From the IMG/VR virus record IMGVR_UViG_3300008110_000223, positions 1-32,883 of that record: DNA of 32,883 nucleotides. One strand, given 5' to 3'. The position numbers and the translations under genes were made by a program. This document shows positions 1 through 32,769 of the stretch, in pieces; within the stretch, counting starts at the first letter, position 1; every line of letters begins with the position of its first letter. Source of the stretch: a virus. Below the pieces are notes generated by a model. It saw only the letters and a list, made by a program, of their open reading frames with translations. It was not told where the DNA came from and made no database searches.

Positions 1-114
1 GTAAATGCGATGTAAATCGTTCCATAGATGTGGTGAACTGAAACGAATCTAACCGATACTGGTAAATGCTACTAAGCGAAATAGCAACCATGATGCTCCA
101 GTAAGTGAGTCAAA
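1..114. repeat. Direct terminal repeat, left copy
   Basis: The first 114 bases are identical to the last 114 of the window (32770-32883). I checked this base by base. The simplest reading is that the contig comes from a circular or circularly permuted molecule and the assembler repeated the overlap, giving a unique length of about 32,769 bp. The repeat cuts through a non-coding RNA candidate, so it is unlikely to be the true physical end of the packaged DNA. Confidence 0.95.
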
Positions 115-364
115 ACAAATGGAATAGAGTAAAGGCAAAGTAGTAAACCTGAAAAAGACAAGTACCATATACGAAACCATAACACTCATATAGTAATGCA
201 GGAATTGGCAGCCAGTTCCACACAAAAGAGAAATGCACTATGGAGGTAGGTATGAGAGGGTCGCAAGTGTAAGTCAGTAAAATGTACCATTTGCAAACGG
301 AACGGGAGGTACTAAGGTGGAGTAAAAAAACCCGATAGCGGTTCGATTCCGCTTCGTTCCGCTA
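1..364 (+). ncRNA. Large structured RNA with tRNA-like 3' end (3' part; 5' part is at 32711-32769)
   Basis: This stretch has no reading frame and is dense in stop codons, but is rich in complementary segments. At its 3' end, 337-353 is a textbook tRNA T-arm: a 5-bp stem (AGCGG/CCGCT) and the 7-nt loop TTCGATT. It is followed at once by a 3' acceptor strand (CGTTCCGCT, 355-363) that pairs with 32711-32719 across the contig junction. ACCCGAT (330-336) pairs with GTCGGGT (32744-32750), where an anticodon stem or tmRNA P2 would be. Inside are further helices: 17-23/299-305, 57-62/98-103 with 68-71/82-85, 116-122/287-293, and hairpin 201-219 extended by 197-200/234-237 and 190-193/238-241; GTACC (162-166) with GGTAC (308-312) would be a pseudoknot. 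There is no clear D-arm, G3-U70 pair or tag frame, so it is not an ordinary tRNA or tmRNA. Identity unknown. Confidence 0.6.
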
Positions 365-375
365 ATTTTTTTTTT
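337..375 (+). terminator. Rho-independent-type end of the structured RNA
   Basis: The T-arm hairpin (337-353) and the 3' strand of the closing stem (355-363) are followed by AA and ten consecutive T (366-375). A GC-rich stem followed by a T tract is what an intrinsic terminator looks like, so the RNA probably ends here and is separate from the downstream mRNA. Confidence 0.55.
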
Positions 376-393
376 AACAACAAAACAAATACA

Positions 394-501
394 ATGAAAA
401 AATTAACATTTCAACAAGCACTTCAATTGATAATTAAGCAGAAGGGTTACAGACCAAGAAACATAGTTGCACTCGCATTGAAAATGATTTCATCAAAATA
501 A
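394..501 (+). CDS. Small basic protein, 35 aa, unknown
   Basis: A 35-codon frame starts MKKLTFQQALQL and ends ALKMISSK. Its leader (366-393, T-rich then AACAACAAAACAAATACA before ATG) is almost the same as the leader of the next gene at 502-527, which supports real translation. The protein is lysine-rich and amphipathic and probably helical. It is the first gene after the structured RNA, 18 nt beyond the T10 tract. I recognise no family. It may be an early regulatory or host-takeover peptide, but this is only position-based. Confidence 0.5.
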   Translation: MKKLTFQQALQLIIKQKGYRPRNIVALALKMISSK

Positions 502-11833: not shown

Positions 11834-13003
11834 ATGATACGGAAAAAAGAATACATAAAAGAAAGTGTATATGAAGAATCACTCAATAGGATTCGGTATA
11901 TCTATGATTCATTTGATAAGGTAGTGGTTAGTTTTAGCGGAGGGAAAGATAGTACCGCAGTTCTGAATATGACATTGCAGATAGCAAAAGAAAAGAATAG
12001 ATTACCATTAGAGGTTGTATTCTTTGATGAAGAAGCCATACACCCACCGACTATTGAATATGTACAAAGGGTTGCAGATAATCCAGATATAAACCTAAAC
12101 TGGTATTGCTTACAAGTGAAACATAGAAATGCTTGTAGTAATGAAGAACCATTTTGGTATTGTTGGGATAGCGAAGCAAAAGATAAATGGGTAAGAGATT
12201 TGCCACCGAGTGCTATTACCGACCATAAGAATTTTAAGAAAGGTATGTCATTCCAAGAGTTTAGTCCTTATTTGTATGATAGGAAAGATGGAAAAATAGC
12301 AATGCTTACTGGTATCAGAACACAAGAGAGTTTGCGTAGGTATCAAGTTATTGCCAGAAAAAAGAACGAAGCATATATCAATAGCAAATCAGAAGCAGGT
12401 CAGAATCAGTACCGATGCTTTCCTATTTACGATTGGTCAAGCGAAGATGTATGGTTGGCAGTACATAAATATGGATGGGATTATAATAGAACGTATGACT
12501 TATTTAATCAAACCAGATTGCATGGTGATTTCCTGCATCAAAGAGTTTGCCCACCTTTCGGAGAAGAACCATTAAGAGGTTTGTGGATTTATGCAGAGTG
12601 CTTTCCAGAATTATGGCACAAAATGCTTTATAGGGTTAATGGTGTTGCGACTGCATGGAGGTATGCCAATAGTTCGCTATATAGCAATAGCAATAGCAAA
12701 CCAGATGATATGACCTATCGTGATTACATTAAAATAGTATTGGATAGTTATGACCATGATAGCAAAGAAGAAGTATCAAATAATATAAATAGGTACATTC
12801 GGTTACATGAATCCAGAACAAAGAATCCAATACCAGAAGAAGAACCACACCCATTGAGTGGAGTATCATGGAAGTGGTTATGTCGGGTTGCAGTACGAGG
12901 TGATTTCAAAGGTAGGCAGTCAAACACACTAAATACAGAAGCAATTAAAACCAGAAATAAATTAGGTATTACATTAGAAGAAGCACAAAAAATATACAAA
13001 TGA
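11834..13003 (+). CDS. PAPS-reductase-like PP-loop protein (IbrA/YbdN type), 389 aa
   Basis: PP-loop ATPase/pyrophosphatase fold: SGGKDS at 35-40, FFDEEAIHPPTIEYV (substrate-side helix) and PIYDWSSEDVWLAVHKYGW near 197-215, all typical of the PAPS reductase family. The C-terminal half continues far beyond it (VCPPFGEEPLRGLW near 239; WRYANS; SWKWLCRVAVRGDFKGRQS), like IbrA/YbdN proteins with a DUF3440-type tail. The catalytic ECGLH motif of true PAPS reductases is absent, so it is not a normal sulfate-assimilation enzyme. The stop overlaps the second ParB start (ATGA), which couples them. Confidence 0.85.
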   Translation: MIRKKEYIKESVYEESLNRIRYIYDSFDKVVVSFSGGKDSTAVLNMTLQIAKEKNRLPLEVVFFDEEAIHPPTIEYVQRVADNPDINLNWYCLQVKHRNACSNEEPFWYCWDSEAKDKWVRDLPPSAITDHKNFKKGMSFQEFSPYLYDRKDGKIAMLTGIRTQESLRRYQVIARKKNEAYINSKSEAGQNQYRCFPIYDWSSEDVWLAVHKYGWDYNRTYDLFNQTRLHGDFLHQRVCPPFGEEPLRGLWIYAECFPELWHKMLYRVNGVATAWRYANSSLYSNSNSKPDDMTYRDYIKIVLDSYDHDSKEEVSNNINRYIRLHESRTKNPIPEEEPHPLSGVSWKWLCRVAVRGDFKGRQSNTLNTEAIKTRNKLGITLEEAQKIYK

Positions 13004-32042: not shown

Positions 32043-32515
32043 AGTATCTTTTTATCATTGTGATTTTTTTATACTCATGCACAACACAGAAAAAGGTAAT
32101 AAATTATTTGAATAATAATGAAGAAGTTGCTGCAAATTATTGTGCTAATAAATATCCAATCGGTACTGATACCATGGTTATAGTTGAACACGATACTACT
32201 ATTCTAAAAGAATACATTACAGAAATTGATTCATTAGAAATACATGATACTATATGTCTGGAATTAAGGGAGAAGATTAAATACATAATAAAAAATAACC
32301 CACCAGTAGTTAAGACCATAACCATTGAGAAAGAGAATACCGCTAAACTGAAAGCATTACAAATTAAAATAGAATCAAAGGATAAATTGATTGATGATTT
32401 GAATGCAGAACGGAAGAAGTATAAAAACCAGAGCAAGACAAGATTAACTATTATAATCTGGTTAGTGCTTATACTGGTTGGATTTATTGCTGCAAAATTC
32501 CTTCCGATACGTTAA
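32039..32515 (+). CDS. Unimolecular spanin (u-spanin) candidate, 158 aa
   Basis: N-terminal signal with lipobox FLYSC (Cys at 14), a periplasmic region with coiled-coil-like helix (about 105-135, TAKLKALQIKIESKDKLIDD), and a C-terminal transmembrane helix (about 136-155, LTIIIWLVLILVGFIAAKFL). An outer-membrane lipoprotein that is also anchored in the inner membrane is the u-spanin plan (T1 gp11 type), which fuses the two membranes at lysis. Cluster position after the amidase supports it. Confidence 0.75.
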   Translation: MKYLFIIVIFLYSCTTQKKVINYLNNNEEVAANYCANKYPIGTDTMVIVEHDTTILKEYITEIDSLEIHDTICLELREKIKYIIKNNPPVVKTITIEKENTAKLKALQIKIESKDKLIDDLNAERKKYKNQSKTRLTIIIWLVLILVGFIAAKFLPIR

Positions 32516-32710
32516 CAGTCGGCGTTCCAGACCATTACCAGTACACTATCATACTAAATTTCTTAGTAGTATTTTGCTAATATCATTAGCAGAAATTTGC
32601 CCTTTTGGGCATTTTTTTTGCCCTATACCAACTTCATAACTCATTGATATTCAATGTGCTATATGCTATCCTAAAAAATAATTTTGTGGAATAAAATTTA
32701 TTTGTATTTT
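32516..32710 (+). terminator. Post-lysis non-coding region: hairpins and terminator
   Basis: Three hairpins in a row: ACTAA/TTAGT at 32553-32567, a 7-bp stem 32575-32581/32585-32591 with an ATC loop, and TGCCC-TTTT-GGGCA at 32598-32611 followed by eight T (intrinsic terminator, late operon). Between 32620 and 32681 I see nothing. No reading frame supported. Confidence 0.75.
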
Positions 32711-32712
32711 AG
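32682..32712 (+). promoter_or_regulatory. Possible promoter for the structured RNA
   Basis: TTTTG (32682-32686), 18 nt, then TATTTTAG (32705-32712) partly matches the Bacteroidota -33/-7 pattern (TTTG, TAnnTTTG; one mismatch in the -7 box). A start near 32715-32719 would lie just inside the 5' strand of the closing stem, so fit to the RNA boundary is imperfect. TTTATTTG (32697-32704) is an alternative -7 box. Confidence 0.3.
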
Positions 32713-32769
32713 CGGAACGCAATCAGCGAAAAGTTCTTTCAAAGTCGGGTGTAGTAGTGGAAACCACAA
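32711..32769 (+). ncRNA. Large structured RNA with tRNA-like ends (5' part; continues at base 1)
   Basis: 5' end of the RNA described at 1-364. AGCGGAACG (32711-32719) pairs with CGTTCCGCT (355-363), extendable to 11 bp. GAAA/TTTC (32728-32731/32737-32740) could be a small D-arm substitute, although no GG doublet is present to meet the T-loop. TCGGGT (32745-32750) pairs with ACCCGA (330-335). GTGG/CCAC (32757-32760/32764-32767) forms a hairpin with an AAA loop. The element reads continuously only once the circle is closed. Confidence 0.55.

Follow-up and report, generated by a model that had tools for sequence, protein, structure and literature searches.

What kind of RNA lies across the two ends of this phage contig, a tRNA enlarged by a giant insert or something else, and how would it be made? 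The window, that is, the whole stretch of 32,883 nucleotides analysed here (IMG/VR record IMGVR_UViG_3300008110_000223), was first described in a sequence-only reading, according to which the contig break hid a tRNA-like RNA in a gene-free region. Both statements on the setting held. An exact 114-nt direct repeat is shared by the two window ends, so that the genome closes into a circular map of 32,769 bp, and only the cut in this map splits the RNA (32716-32769 plus 1-361, ~410 nt). No gene lies between the ORF ending at 32515 and the ORF starting at 394. The features of the RNA upstream of its 3' end, and those flanking it, were as follows:

32682-32712, + strand: candidate promoter of Bacteroidota type, TTTTG (32682-32686), 18 nt, TATTTTAG (32705-32712)
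32711-32719, + strand: AGCGGAACG, the 5' closing strand of the sequence-only reading, pairing with 355-363; specific to this genome
32716-32769, + strand: 5' part of the RNA, continuing at position 1
32732-32741, + strand: boxA-like motif AGTTCTTTCA, where the conserved RNA begins
1-297, + strand: main structured domain, joined to the 5' part at 32769; homologous to L174
145-164, + strand: conserved motif AAACCTGAAAAAGACAAGTA, whose degenerate form AAACYTKAAWARGRCARGTA retrieves family members
166-172, + strand: 5' strand of a long-range helix, pairing with 248-254; five of seven pairs form in the window
248-254, + strand: 3' strand of the long-range helix; a conserved AGGGTCG motif comes next
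263-294, + strand: hairpin (263-269 with 288-294, read from the sequence) that separates the AGGGTCG motif from the tRNA-like end; the equivalent hairpin covaries in relatives
366-375, + strand: T10 tract, probably leader sequence and not a terminator
1067-1516, + strand: small protein of unassigned function, often encoded near the RNA

Homologous RNAs were found in diverse uncultured phage contigs, with at least seven distinct relatives. L051 and L055 were reached via capsid-gene relatives and have a ~500 nt non-coding region at the map position of the window's RNA; the capsid-gene relative L022 has no such region. Searches with an alignment of a DUF932 protein, with the small downstream protein and with a motif of the RNA led to L083, L088, L093, L096, L165, L170/L163 and L174; L209 was similar in appearance, as was, less surely, L085. 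Few genes are common to the window and L165, L170 and L174. The nearest full-length relative was L174, with 56% identity (241 of 428 aligned bases in common), and a search with its single sequence gave two matches in the window, one running over the join from 32732 to 170 (E 4.5e-7) and one at 231-364 (E 5.8e-5). A profile built without the window also matched it (E 3.2e-8). Homologs of the 1067-1516 protein were encoded close to the RNA in L083, L051, L096, L165 and L174 and were not found in the L170, L209 and L085 records; this family, characterized by a (H/Y)TK(D/E)DV motif, also occurs in phages without the RNA. Searches elsewhere were negative: blastn with the family RNAs as queries returned only short chance matches in plasmids and isolated phages, none of the 67 matches of the conserved motif in the bacterial genomes searched had an RNA-like context, model R1 had no match in 295 genomes of one class, and an MCP search in genome contigs found none. 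Further gene-free regions of ~500 nt, possibly more structured RNAs, were seen in two related phages (L098 1306-1793 and L100 995-1498).

The RNA appears to be real and to represent a new family. Rfam returned no family at threshold for the window and eight relatives, including tRNA, tmRNA, GOLLD, ROOL and group I introns, in line with the earlier statement that a group I core is missing. Only weak sub-threshold matches were obtained, among which tRNA-Sec and SpF41 fell on the tRNA-like end. ARAGORN found no tRNA or tmRNA in the window or in the joined sequence with long introns allowed, and no tRNA in 12 family sequences in standard mode; its mitochondrial mode gave one match, in L174 only. 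A full cloverleaf with D-arm and anticodon arm was not found in the RNA, and three-frame translation, judged by inspection only, revealed no obvious tag peptide. No description of the family was found in the literature searched, most subscription papers lying outside that search.

Large structured RNAs of phages and prophages located near tRNAs, namely GOLLD and ROOL, offer the closest parallel in general appearance, and GOLLD can carry linked tRNAs or a tRNA in a linker (PMC12286853). An RNA particle scaffold of this kind, with the tRNA-like end as an attached or displayed module, would fit a large, structured RNA found only in phages. However, the Rfam GOLLD and ROOL models had no match even at E values up to 5 (window 1-420 and L165 300-960), the RNA is about half the length of GOLLD, and its tRNA part is a reduced element at the 3' end. 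We consider a particle scaffold quite improbable as the explanation in its own right, although it is compatible with the processed RNA that we favour below and does not exclude it.

Folding energy was modest (z = −1.67 for the window) and is weak as evidence, so the case for the RNA rests on covariation in relatives. The modest z-score would also suit the remains of a tRNA beside unstructured intergenic DNA, where helices arise by chance; this is very improbable, being already disfavoured by the compensatory changes and conserved motifs found across divergent phages. Such changes, which the sequence-only reading had named as the check on its proposal, were present in the long-range helix, the hairpin and the tRNA-like end. 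In the long-range helix, 92.9% of cells were paired across eight sequences, with both-side changes in five of the seven pairs.

The tRNA-like end, hereafter mini-tRNA, consisted of the following parts:

298-305, + strand: local acceptor 5' strand CGGAACGG, pairing with 354-361; L174 and L083 have it at the homologous position, with compensatory changes
306-336, + strand: linker or reduced arm in place of the D and anticodon arms; a covarying hairpin in compact relatives, e.g., GCCG CAGG CGGC
337-353, + strand: T-arm, AGCGG TTCGATT CCGCT; covaries in relatives
354-361, + strand: acceptor 3' strand TCGTTCC plus discriminator-like G361; part of the covarying mini-tRNA helix
361-364, + strand: tail GCUA, occupying the position of N73-CCA; the G-C-U was the same in all 12 aligned ends

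In every relative with an available 3' end, the order was the same: one acceptor strand, a short linker or a hairpin, a T-arm of five pairs, the other acceptor strand and G-C-U. With the linker removed, 97.2% of cells in the mini-tRNA helix were paired across 12 ends, with both-side changes in 11 of 12 pairs, a count that is favoured by the partial placement of strands by complementarity and by the omission of a one-base T-arm bulge in L093 and L096; the covariation score was equalled by none of 500 shuffles. A cleaner test, using a MAFFT-only alignment of hairpin and mini-tRNA, gave 95% pairing and double changes in 16 pairs, with far lower values in slid controls. Additionally, with L165 and L170 left out of its construction, a covariance model recovered both (4e-20 and 3e-6, respectively). 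The stack of acceptor and T-stem comprises 7 + 5 bp with covariation, and the T-arm carries a TTCRANT loop on an acceptor of 7–8 bp. The acceptor was mismatched in the larger-linker members L083 and L085, and in L170 the mini-tRNA resembles a tRNA whose anticodon arm is gone. Comparison of sequences supports an RNA with a long structured body capped at its 3' end by a compact mini-tRNA with acceptor, one short arm, T-arm and a tail that is GCU, not CCA, and with neither a D-arm nor a recognizable anticodon.

This architecture differs from the outer plan proposed earlier, a tRNA with a 300-nt domain standing in for its anticodon arm, in which the two RNA ends pair and form a closed RNA, possibly switching with the local acceptor. 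The T-arm of that plan, at 337-353 with loop TTCGATT, is present and covaries. The closing stem 32711-32719/355-363 is likewise an exact 9-bp complement in this genome (shuffle P ~0.001), with a nested anticodon-like helix of 7 bp at 32744-32750/330-336 (P ~0.007) and a 6-bp counterpart in L085 (P 0.096), and the energy model for the window favours the long-range stem by ~5.6 kcal/mol. However, a 5' partner for the acceptor was sought in the six relatives with a known 5' end (L174, L170, L165, L051, L093 and L096) and none of note was found; the nested helix was not found in relatives either. The homology with L174 begins at 32732, downstream of the 5' closing strand, and this strand overlaps the predicted −7 element: as the promoter alignment places that element at 32705-32712, most of the strand may not be transcribed as assumed. 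The window's own local acceptor was not significant by itself (P 0.17), and the local reading hence rests on the relatives. We conclude that the giant-insert plan is probably wrong and that the large domain lies 5' of a tRNA-like end with a local acceptor. The closed RNA is accordingly an unlikely general form, to which we still give some weight; a 5'-3' stem, which energy models prefer here, may form in this particular genome. What stands of the earlier proposal is an RNA that is structured, probably new and in part tRNA-like, backed by homologs and compensatory changes.

Several known RNAs share parts of this design. As in tmRNA, acceptor and T-arm are joined to a long RNA, but tmRNA models had no match (ARAGORN on the joined sequence; Rfam on the relatives and window 1-420), the conserved acceptor is local, and the G3-U70 pair is missing, as had been noted earlier, the third pair being A301-U358 in the local register. 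D-armless mitochondrial tRNAs likewise combine an acceptor, one arm and a T-arm, whereas the mini-tRNA has no recognizable anticodon or decoding role. The acceptor, short arm, T-arm and T-run of the SpF41 sRNA (RF02435) align to window 294-375 with 24.6 bits, far under the gathering score of 52, and SpF41 is streptococcal and has no long conserved body. In MALAT1/mascRNA-type long non-coding RNAs, a long RNA is followed by a tRNA-like element and cut by RNase P in MALAT1; these RNAs are mammalian and unrelated in sequence, and cleavage of the window's RNA is our proposal.

The flanks of the RNA suggested how it may be expressed. The promoter consensus of Bacteroidota is TTTG / TAnnTTTG, and the candidate at 32682-32712 recurs at equal spacing (18–19 nt) and at the same place upstream of the L174, L051, L055, L093 and L096 RNAs, from which we infer a transcription start at ~32716. 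Promoter type, together with phages of Flavobacterium, Bacteroides and Phocaeicola among the terminase relatives, points to a host in the Bacteroidota, although the terminase matches also include Gram-positive phages. Close to the 5' end, most relatives carry AGTTCTTTNA or (A/T)GCTCTTTGAAA. This is a short, AGTTCTTT-like motif, distinct in most but not all members of the family. At the position corresponding to this boxA-like motif, 16S leaders in the Flavobacteriaceae read AGTTCAT. A match to GCGAAGGTCG in one rRNA leader was judged to be due to chance, since other leaders vary at that place. Elsewhere in the genome, the window encodes a PAPS-reductase-like protein with a DUF3440 domain (11834-13003), flanked by ParB_N-like proteins.

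At the 3' side, the T10 tract that had been taken to end the RNA is present at 366-375, but an end there is doubtful: a terminator search at this side found none, relatives carrying the RNA lack the T-run, and a leader resembling the T10 region, TTTTTTAACAACAAAAC, lies at ~504 ahead of the gene at 528. Promoter, boxA-like motif, a position heading a co-directional early gene block and the failure to find a terminator would also be expected of a cis-acting leader, an antiterminator or regulator of the early operon whose tRNA-like end binds a protein or ribosome uncut; mini-tRNAs near start codons in another phage, L104, agree with this as well. Yet the geometry of a tRNA is preserved in T-arm, acceptor and tail, as one would expect if a tRNA-processing enzyme acts on them, and known antiterminator leaders are smaller than the large conserved body of this RNA. 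A purely cis-acting leader is therefore rather improbable.

We instead favour, at about even chances, a phage-specific RNA of ~400 nt that is transcribed from its own promoter with a boxA-like leader and cut by RNase P before its 3' mini-tRNA. RNase P measures the stack of acceptor and T-stem, and its substrates beyond tRNAs include tmRNA and MALAT1 (PMC4919913); the mini-tRNA presents such a stack of ~12 bp with a T-loop. The promoter ahead of the early genes would drive the RNA, and the boxA-like leader would probably recruit host Nus factors, allowing the polymerase to run through untranslated RNA. Host RNase P, we infer, most likely recognizes the stacked acceptor and T-arm and cuts at ~297/298, which would set the 3' end of the RNA and free the downstream mRNA. 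Once released, the body might, as a guess, act as a decoy or as a stable scaffold. Phages have few large structured RNAs, most of them without a known function, and a built-in minimal tRNA would provide a direct handle, through RNase P, on how they are made.

Use of mini-tRNAs as cutting signals is supported by L104. In that phage, eight of them occupy intergenic positions, all oriented with the genes, and the ATG that follows is 25–27 nt away from each T-arm match. The helices of the eight also covary with one another. This repeated arrangement suggests a way of processing phage mRNAs; no report of it was found in the papers searched. Tentatively, and with somewhat more doubt than belief, we propose that anticodon-less mini-tRNAs are general cutting signals in uncultured phages, probably those of Bacteroidota. 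They would serve both to mature the long RNA and, as in L104, to split polycistronic mRNAs just ahead of start codons, much as tRNAs punctuate transcripts in mitochondria.

The linker of the L104 elements (record G001, reverse strand; L104 369-5950) contains TGG, and their tail is CTAAATTTTTTA-like. Single mini-tRNAs upstream of genes were seen in L180, L182, L218 and L230 with the T-arm plus tail pattern, a search in which ordinary tRNAs made up 46 of 81 matches. Larger phages carrying the window's 1067-1516 protein family (L128, L129, L130, L137, L138 and L139) contained tRNA-like elements with odd or shortened middles, several of them just upstream of genes.
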